From Chryseobacterium sp. 3008163 (GTDB taxonomy: Bacteria; Bacteroidota; Bacteroidia; Flavobacteriales; Weeksellaceae): a stretch of DNA of 64,000 nt. The notes beneath the pieces were generated by a model, which saw nothing but the letters and a program-made list of their open reading frames with translations, had not been told where the DNA came from and made no database searches. The stretch lies in NCBI RefSeq assembly GCF_003669035.1, contig NZ_CP033070.1, positions 1,302,001 to 1,366,000 of the forward strand, read 5' to 3'. A program made the position numbers and the translations under genes. Positions 43,761 through 55,908 of this stretch are shown piece by piece (the first letter of the stretch is position 1; every line of letters starts with the position of its first letter).

Positions 43761-45514
43761 TTATAATTTCAACCCTTTTACCAAATAATTTTTCAAAGAC
43801 AACCCGTCTATATACTTACTATTGGGAGGCTCGTACCCAATTTTATCTTTTCTCCAAACAATCTCTTGAGGTACTATATCTTGCATAGCCTCTCTCAGTA
43901 TATATTTAGAGAATCCCTTATTTACCTTATAAATTGAAGGTAATGTAAATACATACTCTACTAGTTTATGAGAAAGGAAAGGCAATCTTACTTCTAATGA
44001 ATGTGCCATAGAATTCCTATCTGCATATCTAAGTAATTCCTGTAATCCTCCTCTGAAGGTTGCTTCATAAAGCACTTCATTTAAGCTAGAAGCTGTATAT
44101 TTTTTATCGAACTGCTCTTTTTTATACTGAGAATGCAGATCTTTTTTAGCCTCTTTACCTAAGAGATTATCAACACTTGATTTAAAACCCAGCAATTGAT
44201 TTATCTGTGCATTAGAAAGCATGTCTTTAATGAAATTATTTCTTAATCTCCTCGACATATTGTTAATGTCATTCGATGCATGCACTTCTTTATATACTTG
44301 TAGCTGTTGCTTATAAAGTTTTTTATCAGTTTTTTTCAGTTCGATGAAAAACATATCTATCAAACCGTGATAACCACAAAGATATTCATCAGCGCCCTGC
44401 CCGTCAAGCATCACTATTACTCCGTTATTCCTAGCCAGTTGCATTACTTCAAATTGTGCAGCAATACTAAGACTTCCAAAAGGTTCCTCCTGATGTTCTA
44501 TAATTTTATGAAGATTCGACAGCATACTGTCTCCATCTGGATAACAGCTAAACCCTTGTGCATTAACTTTACTCAGAACTTTATCTATATATATAGATTC
44601 ATCTTTCTTAAAATTAGGAAAACGTGCAGAAAAAGTCTTTTGATCTACATCACTCATCTTCATATGATTAATCATACAAACTGTAGCAGAACTGTCTAAT
44701 CCTCCCGATAAACTTGTACCAACAGCAACATCTGATCGCAATCTTCGGCTAATAGATGTTTCAAATAGATCAAAAAATGTATTTTTAGCTTCTTGAAAGG
44801 ATATTTTAGAGTCTTGATTGTTGTAATCAATATCCCAATATTTACGTTTTTCTTTTATTTTACCATTTTCATCTACAATAATGTAGTGGCTAGGCTCTAA
44901 TAAAAAATATTTTTATAAAAAGTTTCAGAAAGATCATTTGGATTGAGTAAATAATTAAAATACCAATAATTAAAAAGCATTCTCCCATTTGTCTCTTTCG
45001 GTACATTCACACTCCATAAAGCTTTCATTTCAGATCCAAAATAAAAACTTTCATTTGCTTGAGAATAATAAAATGGCTTTTCACCAAACCTATCTCTGGC
45101 ACAAAATAGGGTCTTTTCCTGATTATCCCAAATTGCAAAAGCAAACATTCCATCAAAATCATCAAGGCATTTTTCTCTTTTATAATCAAAATTTGCCATT
45201 AACACTTCAGTATCTGAGTCTGACCTGAAACTATATCCTTTTGTTCTTAAGAATGCTCTAATCTCGATATAATTATATATCTCACCATTAAATACAATAC
45301 TGTATCTATCCAAATAATGCATAGGCTGACTACCTGCATTAGATAAATCAATAATGGATAATCTTCTATGTCCTAAACCTACAGTAGTTCTCTCATCAAT
45401 CCATTGTCCCTCTCCATCAGGCCCTCGATGCGAGATTGCATCTGTCATTTTTTTTAAATGCTGATAAGTAAGAATATCTTTATTTTTGGATATTATCCCT
45501 GCTATTCCACACAT
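43761..45514 (-). CDS. Asparagine synthetase-like glutamine amidotransferase (AsnB/WbpS type), frameshifted
   Basis: The 5' frame (to 44897) holds the N-terminal glutaminase domain: Cys2 nucleophile (MCGIAGIISKN), RRLSIIDLS, VFNGEIYNY, GMFAFAIWD and RDRFGEKPFYY. The 3' frame has the synthetase domain: PP-loop VGTSLSGGLDSSATV, MLDGQGADEYLCGYHGL and RNSMAHSLEVRLPFLSHKLV. One base added in the A/T run 44902-44907 joins them (KNIFLLEPSHYIIVDE) to 584 residues, normal. In polysaccharide loci such enzymes amidate uronic acids, which fits the UDP-uronic-acid pathway here. Confidence 0.9.
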
Positions 45515-45552
45515 TGTATTTTATTTTAATAAATTTGAAATTATACAACTTA

Positions 45553-46074
45553 CTACAGCTGTAATTCTTTAATGATTTTAGCTGGTATTCCACCAATAAC
45601 AACATTATTAGGAAAAGATTTCGTTACCACGCTATTTGCTCCTACAGTTACATTATCTCCTAATTCTACACCTGCTGTGATTACAGCTCCATGTCCTATC
45701 CAACAATTCTTTCCTATTTTTATTGATTTTCTTATATATATATCTCTATTAAAAAAATCATGATTTGCTGTATGAATACCTACTCCATATGACCAAATTG
45801 TTCCATCTCCTATTTCTAAAATAGTATTATCAAAAACAGAAAAGTAACATCCTCCTGATGCAGCAAATGATGCTAAAATTTTGGGATCATTTACATTAAA
45901 TACTATATTTCTAGAACCTGATACCCTAGAAGTATAATGAACAGAGTATTTAGCAAAGTAATTAATAAAAAATATTCTTTGAAATAGAAAATTAAGAATT
46001 AAAAAATTAATAGGAACTGTTTCGTATTTTTTACTCTTAAATAAAGAGTTTATTTTATTCAGTATTTGTTTCAT
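45553..46074 (-). CDS. Hexapeptide-repeat acyltransferase (WbbJ/CysE-like)
   Basis: A 173-residue left-handed beta-helix protein. After a basic N-terminus, hexapeptide repeats run from about residue 70: NTILEIGDGTIWSYGVGIHT, SIKIGKNCWIGHGAVITAGV, ELGDNVTVGANSVVTK, then VVIGGIPAKIIKE. The HTANHDFF segment has the usual catalytic His. It probably O- or N-acetylates a sugar of the repeat unit. The start overlaps the flippase stop by four bases. Confidence 0.85.
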   Translation of the reverse strand: MKQILNKINSLFKSKKYETVPINFLILNFLFQRIFFINYFAKYSVHYTSRVSGSRNIVFNVNDPKILASFAASGGCYFSVFDNTILEIGDGTIWSYGVGIHTANHDFFNRDIYIRKSIKIGKNCWIGHGAVITAGVELGDNVTVGANSVVTKSFPNNVVIGGIPAKIIKELQL

Positions 46075-47389
46075 TGTTTAAAAAAATATAATATAAAAAT
46101 CGCCAACAACATACCAAAAATCAATTTATCTTTAAATAAAGATAAATATTTTTTCAGACTCCCTTCCAGATATAATGTACTCATAACTAAAACCAGTACT
46201 GAGCAAAATAGAGCTCTTACAATTCCTACGACTTCCCATTTTTGGTAGAAAAAATATATTAAAATTACATTAACAATTAATGATACAAAAGAAACTAATG
46301 CAATATAATTTGTTTTACCTTTAACTGATAATATAGTTCCGTATGTAGCATTTCTCCAAATCAATATTAAACAATAAGCTTCGAATACAGGAATTGATGC
46401 ATAATATTTGTCTCCAAACAAGCCTATTATTATCTGCTTAGAAAATAATATACAAAAAAAAACTAATGGAAAAATAAAATAAGAAGCTCTCTTCACATCA
46501 TTTATCCAAATATTATTTGCTTCTTCAAATTCTTTTTTTTCTATATGTCGCACAATTTTGGGATAACTTATACTAGTAATAGATTTTGTTACCAATCCTA
46601 CAAATGGTATTTCTAAAGCGCCAATAGAATAAATAGCAAATGCACTAATTCCACCTAATTTATTAATAATTATTTTGTCTATGTGAAGTGTAAAAACACC
46701 AAGATATGTTGCAATAAAAAGAGGAAATCCAAACTTAAAAATTATTGAAAGATTGTAACTATTAAAATTCAGCTTAGGATAAATTTTTAATGTAAAAAAA
46801 TAGGTAAATAATTGGCTAGATAACGCTAACAAAAATGGTAAAAATATACTCAAATGAAAATCAAAGCATTTAACATATAAAAATGCAAATAAACTTGTAG
46901 AGAAAACAACGCAAAATACTACCATAGAAAATAAAATCACATTTATTTTACCAATTGACAAACCAATTTGAAGATAAAGTGCATTTGCAGAGAGGAGTAA
47001 ATACAATAAAGGTATTAAAAAGCCTGCCTCTATAATAATATCTATTCCCAATAAAGAACCTATAGTTCCTGAAATATCGTTTGAGCTTAATAATAAAAAT
47101 AATAAAAAAGAAATAATAATAAAAAGAGAATAGCTGTTCCCAACAACTCTCCTATTTTATCATGATGCTTTGCAATGTTATATCTAAATCCCTCAATAAA
47201 TCCAAAGGATAGTAAGACTGCTGTAAATTGAACAAGCAAAATAAGCTGTTTCCATCCACCAACTTCTTCCAATGAATAACTTCTAGCAATTATAATATCT
47301 GCCAAAAAAAGGGTACCTAAAAAACACATATTTGCAATAGAATATAAAATTGCAGGTTTTTTGATCAGATTTAGTATTTTCTCAAACAT
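46071..47389 (-). CDS. Wzx-type oligosaccharide flippase, split by a one-base frameshift
   Basis: The 5' frame (47087-47389; two to three helices, FLADIIIARSYSLEEVGGWK, SFGFIEGFRYNIAKHH) breaks off at the run 47104-47109. One added base makes it continue as FLLFLLLSSNDISG into the 3' frame (IIIEAGFLIPLLYLLLSANA, DKIIINKLGGISAFAIYSIG, IVRHIEKKEFEEANNIW). The joined 439-residue protein has 12 to 14 membrane helices and fits the MOP/PST exporter family that flips lipid-linked repeat units across the inner membrane. Confidence 0.85.
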
Positions 47390-47404
47390 TATAATTAAGT
47401 TTTA

Positions 47405-48432
47405 CTAGTCTAAATTATTAAAATCTTTTAGACTATAAATCCTTTCAATAATATCTACAACTTTCAAGCCCTCTAAAGCATTAGTGGTAATTGTACTTCT
47501 CCCTTTCAATACATCAACTACATTTTCAATAATATAGTGGTGATTAGCCGCAGAGCCTTTATATGCACCGTAATCATTACCTGGATTTGTAGGTGCGAGT
47601 TCCGGCATTTCATAACCTTTTACATTACAAACTTCCACTTTATCCATGTATTGTCCCCCAATTTTTACAGCTCCATTTTCAGCAATAACGGTCATTGAAC
47701 TTTCAAGGTTTTGATTCCAAACTGAAGTTGAATAATTTAAAGAACCCATTCCTCCGTTTACAAAATCAAAATTTATAAAACCTGAATCTTCAAAGTCTGT
47801 AAGGTCTTTATGATTAAAATCGGCAAACTTACCCTGAATATTGGTTAAATCCCCAAACAACCAGTACATAATATCTATAAAGTGAGAAAACTGCGTAAAT
47901 AATGTTCCACCATCTAAATCTTTTTTCCATGCCAAGATTCCGGTTTATAATATCTGTCATCACGGTTCCAGTAACAGTTAAGCTGAACCATATAAATCTC
48001 CCCTAATCTTCCACTCTCTACCATTTCTTTTATCCATGCAGAAGGTGGAGAATAACGGTTTTGCATTACTGCAAAAACCTGCTTATGCTTGTGAAGCGCC
48101 TGAAAAATAAGTTTTTCAGCATCTTGTTTATTCAGAGCCATTGGTTTTTCTACAACAACATGCTTTCCTGCGTCAATTGCTTTATATGCTTGTTCAAAAT
48201 GAAATCCATTTGGAGAAGCAATATTAATCACATCTACTTCAATCCCAGATTTCAAAAAATCATCTAATGATGCGAAAAAAGGAACATCATAACTTTCGAT
48301 TCCCAAAACAGATTTATCTTTTACATCAACTAAAGCTACCAATTCACATTCGGAATTCCTAGACACCATTTCTGCATGTCTTTTCCCAATATGCCCACAA
48401 CCGATAACTGCAAATTTTATTTTTTCAGACAT
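47405..48432 (-). CDS. WbpB/WlbA-like UDP-sugar 3-dehydrogenase (Gfo/Idh/MocA family), frameshifted
   Basis: The 5' frame has the NAD-binding AVIGCGHIGKRHAEMVSRN and VVEKPMALNKQDAEKLI. The 3' frame has the substrate domain (GGTLFTQFSHFIDIMYWLFG, GAVKIGGQYMDKVEV). One base added in the T run 47921-47926 joins them through ESWHGKKDLDGG to 342 residues, normal for the family. By position with wbpA, wbpD and wbpE homologues it should oxidise C3 of UDP-GlcNAcA. In Pseudomonas WbpB the bound NADH is recycled by 2-oxoglutarate. Confidence 0.9.
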
Positions 48433-48440
48433 TTGTATTT

Positions 48441-49013
48441 TTATTTTTTTAAAACTTTATTATTCTCAAGTTTATATTTTTCTCCGCTTTCATCACAAAC
48501 TGCAATACCTTCAGCATCAAAATGTAAACGCTGGCCAAACTCGCTCATCCATCCCATTTGCTTAGCAGGATTTCCAACTACCAAAGCATAATCAGGAACC
48601 TCTTTTGTTACAACGGCACCAGCACCAATGAATGCATATTTACCAATATTGTGACCACAAACAATTGTTGCATTAGCACCAATTGAAGCGCCTAGCCCAA
48701 CATGTGTCTTTAAATATTCATTTTTTCTGTTTACAGCACTTCTGGGATTAATAACATTTGTAAAAACCATTGAAGGACCTAAAAAAACGTCATCATCACA
48801 AGTAACACCTTCATATATAGAGACATTATTCTGAACCTTCACATTCTTTCCTAAAATAACTTTAGGCGAAACTACTACATTCTGTCCGATATTACATTTT
48901 TCACCTAAAATACAATCAGGCATAATATGGGAAAAATGCCATATTTTAGTACCTGCTCCAATGTGGCAACCTTCATCTATAATAGCTGTTTCGTGTGCGA
49001 AAAAATCTGACAT
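48441..49013 (-). CDS. wbpD: WbpD/WlbB-like UDP-3-amino-sugar N-acetyltransferase
   Basis: A 190-residue left-handed beta-helix enzyme. The N-terminus (FFAHETAIIDEGCHIGAGTK, IWHFSHIMPDCILGEKCNIG) and FTNVINPRSAVNRKNEY are the hallmarks of WbpD/WlbB, which transfers acetyl from acetyl-CoA to the 3-amino group of UDP-GlcNAc3NA. GLGASIGANATIVCG and VGNPAKQMGWMSEFGQRL complete it. It lies between the 3-dehydrogenase (8 bases) and the aminotransferase, in pathway order. Confidence 0.92.
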   Translation of the reverse strand: MSDFFAHETAIIDEGCHIGAGTKIWHFSHIMPDCILGEKCNIGQNVVVSPKVILGKNVKVQNNVSIYEGVTCDDDVFLGPSMVFTNVINPRSAVNRKNEYLKTHVGLGASIGANATIVCGHNIGKYAFIGAGAVVTKEVPDYALVVGNPAKQMGWMSEFGQRLHFDAEGIAVCDESGEKYKLENNKVLKK

Positions 49014-49027
49014 ATTTTTATTGATTA

Positions 49028-50151
49028 TTAATTAAAAAAGTTTTTAATCTCATAGATAATAAAATCTAATACCTCCTTATCAAACTCCGTATGAATAGGA
49101 AGTGAGATAACTTCTTCACAAAGTTTTTCTGTAACTGGCAGATGAAAACCTTGATTTACATATTGCTTAAAAGCCTCCTGCTTATATAATGGAAGCGGAT
49201 AATAGATCATGCTTGGGATATTTTTTCACCAAGATATTTTTGCAGTTCATCCCTTTTACCATTTTTAACCTTTAGAGTATACTGGTGGAAAACATGAGTG
49301 GAATTTTTTGCTCTTTCAGGTATTTGAATGTTTGAAATTTCGGCTAAATTTTTATCATAGTAATCTGCCATTTTATTTCTGGCCGAAGAATACTCATCCA
49401 AGTGCTTTAGTTTTACTTTTAAAACAGCTGCCTGAATAGTATCTAACCTTGAATTACAGCCTAATACTTTATGATGGTATTTCTTTTCCTGACCATGATT
49501 GGCGATCATTCTTATTTTTAATGCCAAATCATCATTATTGGTCATTAAAGCTCCACCATCTCCATAACATCCTAAATTTTTTGAAGGGAAGAAAGAAGTA
49601 CATCCTATATGACCAATAGTTCCTGATTTTTTGACAGTTCCATCAGAGAATGTATAATCTGAACCAATTGCTTGTGCATTATCTTCAATTACAAATAAAT
49701 TATGTTTTTCTGCAAATTCAAGAATTTTCTCCATATCAGCACTTTGCCCATATAAATGAACAGGAACAATTGCTTTAGTATTAGGAGTAATATATTTTTC
49801 TAAACCATTAAGTTCAATGTCAAAAGTATTTTCATCTACATCTACCATTATAGGCTTTAATCCTAAAAGTCCCATAACTTCGGCAGTAGCAACGTAGGTA
49901 AAAGCTGGGCAAATGATTTCATCTCCAGGTTTTAATTCTAATGCCATCATTGCGATTTGCAATGCATCTGTACCATTAGCACAAGGAATGACGTGCTTTA
50001 CATTTAAATATTTTTCAAAATCCTGCTGAAATTCTTTTACTGCAGGTCCGTTAATAAATGCTGTATTATCTATACAATTCTGAATGCCAGCATCTACTTC
50101 TTTTTTTATTTTTTCATATTGACTTTTTAAGTCAACCATTTGAATTTTCAT
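49028..50151 (-). CDS. wbpE: WbpE-like PLP aminotransferase (DegT/DnrJ/EryC1), frameshifted near the 3' end
   Basis: The enzyme transaminates the 3-keto group of UDP-3-keto-GlcNAcA using glutamate. The N-terminus is MVDLKSQYEKIKKEVDAGIQ. The PLP region holds ANGTDALQIAMMAL, VIEDNAQAIGSDY and the Schiff-base lysine of SFFPSKNLGCYGDGGAL. The last 60 residues (SMIYYPLPLYKQEAF, FHLPVTEKLCEEVISLPIHT) are in another frame. One base added in the T run 49221-49226 gives GEKNIPSMIYY and a 374-residue protein. Confidence 0.92.
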
Positions 50152-50193
50152 ACAATAATTATGTTTTTGTGTAGTGCGAATTTTAGAGGAAAA

Positions 50194-51384
50194 TTAATTC
50201 TCTATAAGCTCGCTAATTTTATTTCCTATAGAAAGACATGAAGTAGCGGCTGGTGAAGGTGCGTTTCTTACATGAACAATATTACCATTCTTAACGATAT
50301 CAAAATCATCAATTAGTGCCCCACTTCTATCACAGGCCTGTGCTCTTACTCCTGAACCTCCGGGCACAAGATCATTTTCCTGTATTTCCGGCATGAGTTT
50401 TTGCAAAGCTTTGGTAAATGCAGATTTTGAAAGAGAACGATGCACCTCCCCCATTCCCGTTTTACCATATTTTGCAACAATCTTCCTAAATCCTGGCCAT
50501 GTTAATGTCTGCATGGTTTCACTTAAATTGAAATCAAAAAATTGATATCCTTCTTTTTTAAAAGCTAGGACCGCATTTGGACCAGCTTCAATATTTCCAT
50601 CGATCATTCTTGTAAAATGAACTCCCAAGAATGGAAAATTAGGATCTGGAACCGGATAAATAAGATGCTTTACAAGATGCTTCTTTTCGTCTTTTATTTT
50701 ATAATATTCACCTCTGAATGGAATAATGATCACATCATTCTTTTCATTGGTCATTTTTGTAATTTTATCTGAATACAGACCTGCACATGACACCAGTTTT
50801 TTTGTTTTAAATTCAGATTGATTAGTTTTAATAATAATTTCTGAATCTTTATTAATAATGTCTTTTACTTCATTATTAAATTTAACCTCTCCGCCAAGCT
50901 CTTCAAATAATTCTTTTATTTTTTTAGCCACTCCCGGATAATCGATAATACCCGTCTGAGGAACTTTAATAGCTTTTACTCCTTCGCAATGAGGTTCAAT
51001 TTCACGAAACTCTTCTCTTGAAAGATATTTTAAATTATCAAGACCGTTATCTATCCCTCTTTTATAAATATTATCTAAAAGTGGTAGTTCTTCCTGAGAG
51101 CTCGCAACAATTATTTTACCACACAGATCATATTTAATTCCATATTCTTTAGCAAAATTTATTACAGAATGATAACCTTCAATACAGTTTTTCGCTTTTA
51201 AGCTTCCTGGTTTATAATAAATTCCGCTATGAATTACACCGCTATTATGACCAGATTGATGTAAAGATACATCTTTCTCCTTTTCTAAAATTAAAATCTT
51301 AGAATTAGGTTTTTTAAGCTTTGTCTGATAAGCAGTTGCCAATCCTACCAAACCAGCACCGATGATTACGATGTCATAATTCAT
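50194..51384 (-). CDS. lhgO: L-2-hydroxyglutarate oxidase, embedded in the UDP-sugar gene cluster
   Basis: A 396-residue FAD-dependent oxidase of the DAO family. The dinucleotide motif is DIVIIGAGLVGLATAYQ (residues 4-20). Family matches are SLHQSGHNSGVIHSGIYYKP, KLVSCAGLYSDKI, YPVPDPNFPFLGVHFTRMID, EAGPNAVLAFKKEGY and the C-terminal VHVRNAPSPAATSCLSIGNK. It oxidises L-2-hydroxyglutarate to 2-oxoglutarate, passing electrons to the membrane quinone pool. It is unusual in a polysaccharide locus. It lies between wbpA and wbpE homologues, 10 bases downstream of the former. A role in recycling the 2-hydroxyglutarate made by WbpB is discussed in the findings. Confidence 0.93.
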   Translation of the reverse strand: MNYDIVIIGAGLVGLATAYQTKLKKPNSKILILEKEKDVSLHQSGHNSGVIHSGIYYKPGSLKAKNCIEGYHSVINFAKEYGIKYDLCGKIIVASSQEELPLLDNIYKRGIDNGLDNLKYLSREEFREIEPHCEGVKAIKVPQTGIIDYPGVAKKIKELFEELGGEVKFNNEVKDIINKDSEIIIKTNQSEFKTKKLVSCAGLYSDKITKMTNEKNDVIIIPFRGEYYKIKDEKKHLVKHLIYPVPDPNFPFLGVHFTRMIDGNIEAGPNAVLAFKKEGYQFFDFNLSETMQTLTWPGFRKIVAKYGKTGMGEVHRSLSKSAFTKALQKLMPEIQENDLVPGGSGVRAQACDRSGALIDDFDIVKNGNIVHVRNAPSPAATSCLSIGNKISELIEN

Positions 51385-51393
51385 GCTATTTGA

Positions 51394-52689
51394 TTATAAA
51401 CGTGCATCTACCAAGTTTCTATCTAAACAAGCTTTGGTGTCAAATACAACTGCATTTTCTTTTTTCAATAGATTGAGATCCATCTCCAGAAATTCGTTAT
51501 GAGAAACAGCAATGATAAGTGATTCATACTTTTTACCAACGATGAGAGCATCAAGAATATCAATTCCATATTCATGTTTTACTTCTTCTTTGCTTGCCCA
51601 TGGGTCATAAATATCAACATTAACCCCAAAATCTGTGAGTTCTTTATAAATATCCACGACTTTAGTATTTCTTACATCCGGACAGTTTTCTTTGAAAGTA
51701 AATCCTAAAATCAAAGCCTGAGAATCTTTAATCACTCCCCCTTTTGCAATAAGAAGTTTGACTACTTTAGAAGCTACAAATTTCGCAATAGAGTCGTTTA
51801 CTCTACGTCCCGATAAGATAACATCAGGATGATAGCCAAGCTGTTCTGCTTTATGTGCCAAATAATAAGGATCAACAGAAATACAGTGACCACCTACTAA
51901 ACCTGGTTTATATTTAAGAAAATTATATTTTGTTCCTGCAGCTTCCAAAACATCATTGGTATCTATACCCACTCTGTCGAAAATCAAAGCCAATTCATTT
52001 ACAAAAGAGATATTGACATCACGCTGAGCATTCTCTATTGCTTTAGAAGCTTCTGCTACTTTAATGCTTGGTGCTTTATGCGTTCCTGCAGTGATTATTT
52101 TTTTATAAAGATCATCTACTTCTTCTGCAATATCTTCTGTAGATCCCGAAGTTACTTTTTTAACACTCGTTAAAGTATTTACTTTATCTCCAGGATTGAT
52201 TCTTTCAGGAGAATATCCTACGAAAAAGTCTTCGTTGAATTTTAATCCTGAATATTTCTCTAAAACCGGTACACATTCTTCTTCTGTACAGCCAGGGAAA
52301 ACTGTAGATTCATAGATAACAATATCTCCTTTTTTAATAATTTCTCCTAACATTTTTGATGCAGAAATTAGCGGATTCAAATCCGGAGCATTATACCGAT
52401 CAATGGGAGTAGGAACAGTTACAATAAAAATATTAGCCTCAGCAATATCAGATAATTGACTTGTTGCCTTGTATCCTGTATTTCCATTTGATTCGTTATA
52501 TTTTTTTAAGCCGTTATTAAGTTTTTCAATATCAGCTTCAAGCGTTATATCCAAGCCATCATTAAGCTGATCAACTCTTTGTGCATTAATATCAAATCCT
52601 AAAACAGGATAATGACCTGCAAATTCCAAAGATAAAGGCAAGCCTACATAACCTTGTCCTATAACCGCTATTTTATATGTTTTCATCAT
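51394..52689 (-). CDS. UDP-N-acetylhexosamine 6-dehydrogenase (WbpA/WbpO/TviB-like)
   Basis: A 431-residue nucleotide-sugar dehydrogenase that oxidises C6 to the uronic acid in two NAD-linked steps. The N-terminal Rossmann motif is IAVIGQGYVGLPLSLEFAG. Mid-protein are VPTPIDRYNAPDLNPL and YESTVFPGCTEE. The catalytic Cys lies in GLVGGHCISVDPYYLAHKAE. The C-terminal substrate domain has ILGFTFKENCPDVRNTKV. I start at the tandem ATG 52689 just after the wzc stop; the longer reading from 52758 overlaps wzc. Substrate is most likely UDP-GlcNAc given the WbpB-D-E homologues next to it. Confidence 0.93.
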   Translation of the reverse strand: MMKTYKIAVIGQGYVGLPLSLEFAGHYPVLGFDINAQRVDQLNDGLDITLEADIEKLNNGLKKYNESNGNTGYKATSQLSDIAEANIFIVTVPTPIDRYNAPDLNPLISASKMLGEIIKKGDIVIYESTVFPGCTEEECVPVLEKYSGLKFNEDFFVGYSPERINPGDKVNTLTSVKKVTSGSTEDIAEEVDDLYKKIITAGTHKAPSIKVAEASKAIENAQRDVNISFVNELALIFDRVGIDTNDVLEAAGTKYNFLKYKPGLVGGHCISVDPYYLAHKAEQLGYHPDVILSGRRVNDSIAKFVASKVVKLLIAKGGVIKDSQALILGFTFKENCPDVRNTKVVDIYKELTDFGVNVDIYDPWASKEEVKHEYGIDILDALIVGKKYESLIIAVSHNEFLEMDLNLLKKENAVVFDTKACLDRNLVDARL

Positions 52690-52690
52690 T

Positions 52691-55080
52691 TTAGCTAAGT
52701 TTATTTTTGATTTTTTCGAACCATGTGTGTTCTTTATGGTTGTTGTAGCCATAACCATATTTGTTGCTGTATCCTAAATTCTCTCTACTAATATCATTTA
52801 AGACAAAGCCTACATTTTTAATTTTATTCTGGCTAATATTATTATTTGCGAATTCCATTAAAGCTTTTTCAGTGTATTTAGATCTTGTAACATAGATTGT
52901 AACATCTGCCAATTCTGCAATCAGGAAAGTGTCAGTTACCAGAAGTAATGGTGCAGTATCTAAAATAACATAATCATATCTTGCTCTTAACTCATTTAGA
53001 AGCATTTCATATCTTCCATTTGATAATAATTCTGTAGGGTTTGGAGGGATCATCCCTGAATAAATTACATCCAAATACGGATTAAATGACGAAACATGAA
53101 TAACTTCATCAAGGGTTGTCTGATCTGAATATAGATATTCTGTAAGCCCGGTCAGACCTTTTCTTGCGGGGTTATATCTTTGTAACTGAGGATTTCTGAT
53201 ATCAGAACCGATAATAATTGCTTTTTTCTTTGGATTGGCTAAGGTTAATGCAAGGTTAACAGATGTAAATGTTTTTCCTTCTCCTTTTACCGTTGAGGTT
53301 ACAAAAACAACTTTTCCACCATTTTTATCTTTAGAAAGCATAAAATTCATGTTCGTAATAAGAATTCTAAATGCTTCCGCCATTGGTGTAATATCGTTCA
53401 TTTGAACAATTTCAGAATCTCCTTTTTCAAGACTAGGCAATTCTGCAATTATCGGGGCACGAACAAGTTTTTCAAGGTCATGTTTTGTCTTTATTTTATT
53501 ATTAAGTAATTCTTTTAAATAAATTACTAAAAACGGTATAATCAATCCAAGTATAAATGCAACAATGAGAATAACATTCTTCTTTGGTGAAACGGGTAAA
53601 TCAGAAGAATATCCAGAATCGATAACTTTTCCTTTTGGTGCATTGATAGATTGTGCAATTGCAGTCTCTTCTCTTTTTGAAGTAAAAGCAGATACAAATT
53701 TTCTTTAATCTGCTGTTGTCTTTCAATACCTCTAAATATTTTTTCAATGGAGGGAAGTTTTGATATTTTCCCAAAAACTTTACTTTGCTCACCTACATAC
53801 TCATTCTTAGCTAATTCTAATCCAACTCTATTTCTTTGTAAACTCTCGGAAATAGATTGACGTAAACTGTTAACTTGATTTGTAATATCCACAACAGCTG
53901 GGTTTTCTGTAGTAGCAGATTCTAAAAATTTACTTCTTTGAATGATTAACTGATTATATATATTAATTCCTGATGCCACTTCTTGATTTCTCAAGCCAAT
54001 ATTAGAAGGAAGAATCTGATATTGGCTTTGTTTTGAAACAAATCCAATCAAAGAATTCGTTAGCTCCAACTCAGCATCAATATCTAATTGCTTCGTATGT
54101 GCTGCAGCAGAACTTTCTAAATTTATTTTTGCTTCAGTCTCAAGATCTGTTAAGTTGTTTAATGATTTAAAATTTTCTTTCTCATTTTCTACTTGACCTA
54201 ATTCTACAGAAAGTTTTTTAACTCTTTCTTCAATAAAATCCAAAGTTTTTTTGGACTCACTGTTTTTATCTGTAATAGCATCATTGTTATATATTTTCAC
54301 TAATGAATTTACGATATCAACAGCTTTATTTTTCTCAGGGTAGTTTATTTCCAAGCCAACTACAGTTGCATCTCTATTTACTACCGCAACATTAGTGATA
54401 TTTTGAAGTGTGGTGACTTTAGATTCTAATGTAGAAAATACAATCTGAAGATTACTAGTATCTAAATCATTAAGCAAATCTTTATTAAAATTATTATTCT
54501 TAATTATGATAATGTTGGCATATGGTAAACTGATTGTGCGACCAAACAATGAAGTAACCTCTTTACTCATCTCATCTGAAGAAATCACAATTTTATCTCC
54601 TTTCAATGATAAATTCAAAGGCTTCTTTGGAAATGCTACATCGGGCTTTTCATTAATCAGCCTGATAGTTATTGGAGAAGTCCTTTTGTAAAGTTCAATA
54701 CTTTTAAATTTATCTTTTGTAAAAATGTCAATCTGCAAATTTTGTGAAGTAACAACATCCCTCATCAACCTTTTAGATTTTAGTATTTCAATTTCATTTT
54801 CAATACTATTGGTTTTCATTCCCCCAAAACCTGTTAAATCCTGCAAAACACCACTATCATCACTCGACGGATTATTTTTTGAATCTTTTATTAATATTGT
54901 ACTTTTAACATTATAAACCGGGGTAATAAAGTTTATTAGAAAATATGATAATACAGAAAATGATAATGCAGAAATAATAAACCAAGGCCATTTTCTTAGA
55001 TAGGGCCTAATAATTTCATTGACATTGATACTTTCTGAATTATTTTCTGCGTCTGAAAATTGCGAAGATTGGTTATCCAT
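52691..55080 (-). CDS. wzc: Wzc-like polysaccharide co-polymerase with BY-kinase domain, frameshifted
   Basis: The 5' frame holds the Wzz-type chain-length domain with N-terminal helix ([19 protein letters not shown]) and coiled coil. The 3' frame holds the cytoplasmic tyrosine kinase: Walker [20 protein letters not shown], Walker A' [13 protein letters not shown], Walker [13 protein letters not shown] and a Tyr-rich tail ([13 protein letters not shown]). One base added in the T run 53674-53678 gives [20 protein letters not shown], then the second helix ([20 protein letters not shown]) and 796 residues. It controls chain length and export with Wza. Confidence 0.93.
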
Positions 55081-55089
55081 TAATTTTTT

Positions 55090-55908
55090 CTATTTTGTGA
55101 TTAAGGTTACCACTACGGCAGCCGCAGTTATTGCAATAGATGCTGCAGTTAAATACAGACCTGTATTAGGATTCTGCTTAGCCTGAATATCTTTGGAGTT
55201 ATTTGCCGATACGATGATAGCATCACCTTGCTTTAAATTATAATAAGGAGAATTGATAAGAGAAGCATCTTGTAAGTTGACTTTACCATGAGAAACTACT
55301 CCATTTTCTGTTCTTACAACCAATACATCATTTCTTTTACCATACATTGTAAGATCACCTGCCATCCCCAAAGCATTCCAAATAGTTGCTTGACCATTTG
55401 CGACTGTATAATCACCTTGTCTGTTTACCTCCCCTAAAACTGTAACTTTAAAATTGGCTAATCGTATGCTAATTGTAGGATTGATTACATACTTTAACAT
55501 TTTTTCTCTCAACTCTTCTTTTAAATCAACTAAAGTCTTACCATTGGTATCTAAAATGCCCAAAATAGGAAAATTTATAGTACCATTTGTATCTACGATA
55601 TATGTTGGTCCTTGTATAGAACTGACACCCTGATTAGGTGTATTTCCGCCCGCCATTGCATTTGTCTGAATCATTTCTGAAGAAGAGTAATTCTGATTAA
55701 ATGGCTTTACCACATCCATATCTTTGGCAGTGATGAGAATCACTAACTGATCTCCAGGCTGAATAGTCGAACTAGAATTTTTCATCGAATTCTCAATAGC
55801 TACCTGTTCTATGTTTTGCATGTAATTTAAATCATTTTTCGCAGTAGGATTTGTCCTGCAAGAAACAATTATGATTGTTGATAATATAATTAATATTTTA
55901 CTCTTCAT
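55090..55908 (-). CDS. wza: Wza-like polysaccharide export lipoprotein
   Basis: A 272-residue outer-membrane lipoprotein: signal with lipobox-like IIIVSC (Cys at about residue 17). The poly_export domain follows (STIQPGDQLVILITA, YIVDTNGTINFPILGILDTN), then the SLBB domain (FKVTVLGEVNRQGDYTVANG) and a C-terminal hydrophobic helix (LTAASIAITAAAVVVTLI). It forms the export channel with Wzc, whose gene starts 10 bases downstream. A minus-strand -7 box lies at 55923-55930. Confidence 0.94.
   Translation of the reverse strand: MKSKILIILSTIIIVSCRTNPTAKNDLNYMQNIEQVAIENSMKNSSSTIQPGDQLVILITAKDMDVVKPFNQNYSSSEMIQTNAMAGGNTPNQGVSSIQGPTYIVDTNGTINFPILGILDTNGKTLVDLKEELREKMLKYVINPTISIRLANFKVTVLGEVNRQGDYTVANGQATIWNALGMAGDLTMYGKRNDVLVVRTENGVVSHGKVNLQDASLINSPYYNLKQGDAIIVSANNSKDIQAKQNPNTGLYLTAASIAITAAAVVVTLITK

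Follow-up and report, generated by a model that had tools for sequence, protein, structure and literature searches.

Several of the closest described relatives of the system treated here come from surface-sugar synthesis. In Pseudomonas aeruginosa, the sugar 3-dehydrogenase WbpB reduces 2-oxoglutarate to D-2-hydroxyglutarate, which inhibits WbpB, and a second enzyme, D2HGDH, converts the product back; its loss lowers O-antigen, so recycling of WbpB-made D-2-hydroxyglutarate is already published (PMC8651671). Cj1427 of Campylobacter is a nucleotide-sugar dehydrogenase that holds its NADH tightly and uses 2-oxoglutarate to reset it in a ping-pong mechanism, with L-2-hydroxyglutarate as the product; its substrate is GDP-heptose, on which it acts as a C4-dehydrogenase, and the available text describes no partner oxidase (PMC10680097). 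The WlbA enzymes of Bordetella pertussis and Chromobacterium violaceum are reported to follow a sequential mechanism, not the 2-oxoglutarate ping-pong one (PMC10622841). We analyzed a 64,000-nucleotide stretch of the Chryseobacterium sp. 3008163 genome (NZ_CP033070.1, positions 1,302,001 to 1,366,000; hereafter the window, to which all its coordinates refer), in which lhgO, encoding an L-2-hydroxyglutarate oxidase, stands within a run of wbp genes. The reading we lean towards is that LhgO regenerates 2-oxoglutarate for the nucleotide-sugar dehydrogenase of this pathway, WbpB, which would discharge its hydride as L-2-hydroxyglutarate. What the locus would add is an L version of the published D coupling, with the oxidase encoded inside the sugar gene run itself.

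Results

lhgO lies within a wbp gene run

The first-pass annotation had placed lhgO between a WbpA-like dehydrogenase and a WbpE-like aminotransferase on the same strand, with wbpD and wbpB homologues next and short gaps. This arrangement was borne out: the list of open reading frames (ORFs) gives the minus-strand order wza, wzc, wbpA, lhgO, wbpE, wbpD, wbpB, with 9 bases between wbpA and lhgO and 42 bases between lhgO and wbpE, and a scan of these two gaps for terminator-like sites showed none in either. The whole lhgO gene (50194..51384, minus strand) encodes 396 amino acids. Upstream, a wbpA-like gene for a UDP-N-acetylglucosamine 6-dehydrogenase of the TviB/WbpA type (51394..52689, minus strand) is also whole; its ORF spans 51394-52758, and its start was set by its relatives, whose alignments begin at 52689 or just inside. 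WbpA comes closest to the TviB model, at 523 bits, under the equivalog cut-off of 592, and scores 387 bits against the nucleotide sugar dehydrogenase model, above the cut-off.

Downstream, all on the minus strand, follow the main piece of a wbpE-like aminotransferase (49207..50151, 314 amino acids; best PDB match 3nu7 WbpE, E 4.9e-87), the remainder of which matches in a different frame at about 49031-49225, and a whole wbpD-like N-acetyltransferase gene (48441..49013; best PDB match 3mqg, a lipopolysaccharide acetyltransferase, E 3.3e-66). A wbpB/wlbA-like Gfo/Idh/MocA dehydrogenase comes last as an N-terminal piece (47914..48432; best PDB match 3q2k, 107 bits) and a C-terminal piece in another frame (47405..47935; best PDB match 3q2i, 72 bits), the frame changing at about 47920. 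WbpA, WbpB, WbpE and WbpD homologues of the UDP-GlcNAc(3NAc)A (Wbp/Wlb) pathway are all present together, as the first-pass annotation had proposed, and are identified by models and PDB matches, although wbpE and wbpB are not whole in this assembly; both are whole in all four related loci compared. The nearest named locus is that of Chryseobacterium sp. CH21, whose LhgO is 90% identical to that of the window.

LhgO retains the ligand residues of L-2-hydroxyglutarate dehydrogenases

LhgO scores 543.7 bits against NF008726 (L-2-hydroxyglutarate oxidase; cut-off 299), and its best PDB match is 8w75, Drosophila L2HGDH. Both this curated model and the ligand-binding residues place it in the family of E. 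coli LhgO, P. putida LhgO and Drosophila L2HGDH, although the available part of PMC8206213 places lhgO in csiD-gab glutarate operons or in lhgR-lhgO rather than in sugar loci. The residues through which the Drosophila enzyme binds 2-oxoglutarate have been described, and that enzyme has no activity on D-2-hydroxyglutarate (PMC10726252). In the alignment, its 2-oxoglutarate contacts S88, H92, Y289, L299, H302 and R393 correspond to S48, H52, Y243, L253, H256 and R347 of LhgO, and its contact V90 to flavin adenine dinucleotide (FAD) corresponds to V50. All seven are conserved without change in 139 of the 141 LhgO rows of the alignment (the window sequence enters twice), the exceptions being one truncated piece and one Ile for Val. 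Because the ligand residues are kept and Drosophila L2HGDH is inactive on the D form, L-2-hydroxyglutarate is the likely substrate of LhgO. A search of the strain's own genome (one contig, 4.56 Mb) for PF02913, the C-terminal domain of known D2HGDHs, found no protein, and the same D2HGDH-type search found none in 147 of 148 genomes of the genus; as a control, the domain was detected in 11 of 14 genomes.

lhgO is found only with wbpB in the genus

We surveyed 148 genomes of the genus for lhgO (E ≤1e-90) and wbpB (E ≤1e-60), which were found in 46 and 51 genomes, respectively, two of the latter with weak matches (G487 and G570, at most 241 bits). Each of the 46 lhgO genes shares a contig with wbpB at a distance of 1.77-4.26 kb, and lhgO was matched in none of the 97 genomes without wbpB (Fisher p = 5e-33, a value that overstates independence because the whole locus may be passed on as one block). 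Within the genus, the proposed link of lhgO to the wbp pathway therefore stands. On the same counts, we rejected a chance neighbor and a role of lhgO in this genus as a housekeeping repair gene.

Three of the 49 genomes with a strong wbpB match gave no lhgO match. One of them, G522, in fact has lhgO at the locus in pieces and is a 47th genome with the gene; in G581, one of the 46, lhgO is interrupted. The other two, G103 and G521, are also without wbpE at that locus and have a WbpE relative (57-58%) elsewhere in each genome. At the loci of two genus members, L035 and L036, two other genes occupy the wbpD slot, with lhgO, wbpA, wbpE and wbpB retained. The replacements (L035 10744-13822; equivalent position in L036) encode a thiamine-diphosphate E1-type dehydrogenase of 643 amino acids, with families PF00676, PF02779 and PF02780 as read for L035 only, and a 384-amino-acid protein with a hexapeptide stretch; they may acylate the sugar amine using a group from a 2-oxo acid.

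The window WbpB belongs to the WlbA family

The first-pass annotation had carried the Pseudomonas WbpB model over to the window, which sequence comparison did not support. The profile of the window WbpB scores 218 bits to 3q2k/3q2i, the WlbA structures from B. pertussis and C. violaceum. To 3oa2, the P. aeruginosa structure listed as WbpB, it scores 53 bits. On these scores, the P. aeruginosa type is ruled out, and the protein falls in the WlbA family, with 3q2k and 3q2i as its nearest solved relatives. Members of that family from B. pertussis and C. violaceum reportedly do not need 2-oxoglutarate. Since the window WbpB is of a different family, neither the D result from P. aeruginosa nor the 2-oxoglutarate mechanism transfers to it, and we dismissed for the same reason the argument that the D result refutes an L coupling. 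We favor a 2-oxoglutarate mechanism for the window WbpB on account of the lhgO linkage and the Cj1427 precedent. A predicted structure of intact WbpB (5 sequences) had a mean predicted local distance difference test (pLDDT) score of 59.8, too low for a fold search.

The stereochemistry had been left uncertain by the first-pass annotation, with a fit only if the product is the L form or LhgO is not strict. An L precedent now exists in another sugar dehydrogenase, Cj1427 (PMC10680097); against the proposal as first stated, the assayed WbpB of P. aeruginosa gives the D form (PMC8651671), and Drosophila L2HGDH is inactive on that form (PMC10726252).

Linkage recurs, sparsely, beyond the genus

Next, we turned to the phylum, using an even sample of 345 genomes in which lhgO/wbpB pairs were counted by hand. 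lhgO was present in 138, wbpB in 50 and both in 36. Six of these 36 have the pair within 10 kb, namely five of the genus and G170, where the two genes that pair, 2.8 kb apart, are both second copies. The distance to wbpB is 20-22 kb for the second lhgO copies in G181 and G237; in five other genomes the two genes share a contig at larger distances, and in 23 they sit on different contigs. With 23 of the 30 unpaired genomes from outside the genus split in this way, a few linkages could be hidden by contig ends. lhgO occurs in 36 of 50 wbpB genomes and 102 of 295 others (Fisher p = 1.3e-6), a difference given little weight because a single family (f38) with frequent lhgO confounds it.

A wider contig scan, limited to the best 80 of at least 593 lhgO candidates, found WbpA, WbpE or WbpB at ≥40% identity on nine loci (L156, L157, L158, L160, L180, L184, L202, L219 and L221). 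We then pooled the lhgO loci flanked on either side by 5 kb or more, 97 in number and 96 after removal of one duplicate, leaving out 24 for short flanks. WbpE or WbpB (≥40% identity) lies within 5 kb in 18 of the 96, nine of the 18 being the window and its genus. On the LhgO tree, the linkage label needs seven changes, at least five of them forced by well-supported branches (quick method; L116 forms a long branch). If chance accounts for 0.3-1.2% per locus, which is our own rough estimate, five independent events in 86 loci have P ≤0.004. On the WbpB tree, lhgO-linked and unlinked genes are intermixed. The recurrent lhgO-wbpB pairing expected in Bacteroidota is therefore consistent in the genus and recurs in some other lineages, but outside the genus the two genes usually lie apart.

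The gene order of Parapedobacter is that of the genus, and its WbpB is 82% identical to that of the genus. At L202 and L221 the order is lhgO-wbpE-wbpA, with wbpB not alongside; a search at E 1e-30 gave no wbpB match in G604, and G606 has a match on the same contig at a distance of about 25 kb. A tie of lhgO to wbpE rather than wbpB was considered; we saw no mechanism for it without a source of 2-hydroxyglutarate, since LhgO makes, and does not use, the by-product of WbpE.

Other sugar-related neighborhoods were also encountered. In an Ignavibacteriae metagenome-assembled genome (MAG; L219 4664-9826), lhgO runs with genes for a WbpE relative, a small acetyltransferase and a Gfo/Idh dehydrogenase of another kind; neither 3q2k/3q2i nor 3oa2 is among the best 60 of 81 PDB matches of that dehydrogenase. 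Four lhgO copies (L117 5503-6747, L119 5457-6701, L121 9476-10675 and L034 9454-10644) are clustered with a short-chain dehydrogenase/reductase (SDR) of 332-339 amino acids and a DegT-like aminotransferase in what look like legionaminic-acid-type loci. In the first three, lhgO is a divergent second copy; the checked residues are kept in all four LhgOs, with Ile for Val in L121. A literature search for lhgO in polysaccharide loci found no link in the papers examined among those naming both.

A second sugar gene run pairs lhgO with rfbF

Four Deinococcus plasmids (L260-L263) share the order rfbF-lhgO-SDR-rfbC-DRL oxidoreductase, L260 7226-12149 being the Deinococcus aetherius plasmid. The best PDB match of the D. 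aetherius SDR is 6vo6 (78.9 bits; next 71.5), probably the structure of Cj1427; Cj1427 itself has the SDR fold. In the pooled set, rfbF (≥55% identity) lies within 5 kb of lhgO at nine of 96 loci, seven from cyanobacteria and two from Bacteroidota. All seven cyanobacterial loci have an SDR 68-73% identical to the Deinococcus SDR, and two of them, L220 and L233, also have rfbC and DRL within 5 kb. Outside the pooled set, rfbF and such an SDR also occur at L155 and L056 (Bacteroidota), L213 (a Tatlockia MAG) and L225 (a cyanobacterium). The full list of rfbF-lhgO loci is L260-L263, L220, L223, L225, L226, L230, L231, L233, L234, L213, L155, L056, L153 and L154.

Besides D. aetherius, seven plasmid records with a DRL gene were examined among the matches listed (30 of 55); three have lhgO, all Deinococcus, and the stretches L264-L267 contain no lhgO, L266 having just a 30% FAD oxidoreductase. 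In Pontibacter (L159), the LhgO nests among wbp-linked LhgOs on the tree, and the locus holds rfbF, an SDR (41% to the Deinococcus SDR), rfbC and DRL. Altogether, 69 of the 96 lhgO loci lie outside both kinds of gene run (wbp and rfbF), a count that includes L034, L117, L119, L121 and L159 although these are in other sugar clusters.

Upstream genes and frame changes in the window

The upstream part of the gene run, on the minus strand and named from translation, consists of a wza-like polysaccharide export lipoprotein gene (55090..55908), with a homologue at the same place in L156 and L038, and a wzc-like chain-length/tyrosine kinase gene in two pieces (53542..55080 and 52691..53545). Besides wbpE and wbpB, frame changes affect wzc (against two relatives) and asnB (against one), and within 43761-55080 a flippase-like gene is also split into two ORFs; lhgO, wbpA and wbpD are intact. 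Breaks of a like kind occur in the corresponding locus of G522. Because the frame changes cluster in neighboring genes, assembly error seems a better fit than decay.

Discussion

In the scheme we propose, WbpA would convert UDP-GlcNAc to UDP-GlcNAcA, and WbpB would oxidize the C3 hydroxyl of the latter and, in this lineage, pass the hydride to 2-oxoglutarate to give L-2-hydroxyglutarate. WbpE would aminate the 3-keto sugar from glutamate, freeing 2-oxoglutarate, and WbpD would acetylate the product. Without LhgO, WbpB and WbpE would together spend one glutamate per sugar as one dead-end L-2-hydroxyglutarate. By returning L-2-hydroxyglutarate to 2-oxoglutarate and its electrons to the membrane, with quinone as the probable acceptor, LhgO would close the cycle and pull the unfavorable C3 oxidation forward. 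For the key step, formation of the L form by WbpB, gene linkage and analogy are our guides. The published P. aeruginosa pair follows the same logic, but there the product is the D form, D2HGDH is of another fold and WbpB of another family, whereas the window has an L enzyme within the sugar gene run. That LhgO recycles 2-hydroxyglutarate from WbpB, as first proposed from the sequence, gains from the linkage in the genus, the intact ligand residues, the lack of a PF02913 match in the strain's own genome and the published D-form recycling.

Several observations weigh against this proposal. The window WbpB falls in a family for which assays are reported to show a sequential mechanism (PMC10622841), and the single chirally assayed WbpB we encountered, that of P. 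aeruginosa, yields the D form (PMC8651671). In G103 and G521, wbpB is retained and lhgO gave no match, and the genus locus may be one inherited cassette, so that 46 genomes are not 46 independent events. In the phylum sample, the pair is within 10 kb in just one of the 31 genomes outside the genus with both genes, and 14 of the 50 wbpB genomes have no lhgO match. Finally, the nine linked loci from other lineages have wbpE nearby in eight cases and wbpB in five, making the tie to wbpE at least as strong.

Of the alternatives, metabolite repair survives best, though we regard it as unlikely. WbpB would be a plain NAD+ enzyme, and LhgO would clear L-2-hydroxyglutarate made by side reactions of malate or lactate dehydrogenase, worsened by the NADH from WbpA and WbpB, so that its link to the pathway would be indirect. 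The sequential mechanism of the WlbA-type family agrees with this (PMC10622841), animal malate and lactate dehydrogenases have been described as sources of L-2-hydroxyglutarate (PMC10726252), and most lhgO genes elsewhere lie outside both kinds of gene run. Malate dehydrogenase is general, however, yet the wbpB-less genomes of the genus gave no lhgO match.

Less probable still is that lhgO arrived by horizontal transfer and was retained, without any coupling, as a passenger of a locus inherited in one piece. The shared order and 82% WbpB identity in Parapedobacter suggest that the block moves as a unit, and in the genus lhgO and wbpB have been gained and lost together; but lhgO was placed beside wbp genes several separate times on the LhgO tree, persists where wbpD has been exchanged, is missing where wbpE is missing, and also occurs in the rfbF type of sugar gene run. 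We find it very doubtful that this LhgO branch oxidizes a UDP-uronic acid intermediate directly (for example at C3), aiding or replacing WbpB, as its tight placement between wbpA and wbpE and the L202 and L221 arrangements might suggest, because LhgO retains the 2-oxoglutarate-binding residues of Drosophila L2HGDH, the second-carboxylate Arg among them, and wbpB is present in all 46 genus genomes with lhgO.

Coupling of LhgO to WbpB may be one case of a wider pattern, which we advance tentatively and at somewhat short of even confidence: LhgO would repeatedly be partnered with nucleotide-sugar dehydrogenases whose bound NADH is reset with 2-oxoglutarate to give L-2-hydroxyglutarate. The partners would be of two folds, WlbA-type Gfo/Idh enzymes in wbp loci and Cj1427-like SDRs in the rfbF-lhgO-SDR loci of Deinococcus, cyanobacteria, the Tatlockia MAG and some Bacteroidota, jointly making up a shuttle in which L-2-hydroxyglutarate links surface-glycan synthesis to the respiratory chain, a mirror image of the WbpB-D2HGDH pair. 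Two Bacteroidota loci, L153 and L154, count slightly against it, as they have lhgO next to rfbF and DRL but no Cj1427-like SDR within 5 kb.

L-2-Hydroxyglutarate is usually regarded as a metabolic accident or an intermediate of lysine breakdown. If our proposal is true, some bacteria would produce it in step with each surface-sugar residue and keep a dedicated oxidase gene beside the pathway. This would give lhgO genes that are otherwise unexplained a testable role and would flag sugar dehydrogenases wrongly tested with NAD+ alone. It also raises the question of whether one WbpB family makes the D and the other the L enantiomer of 2-hydroxyglutarate, with a separate oxidase in each case.

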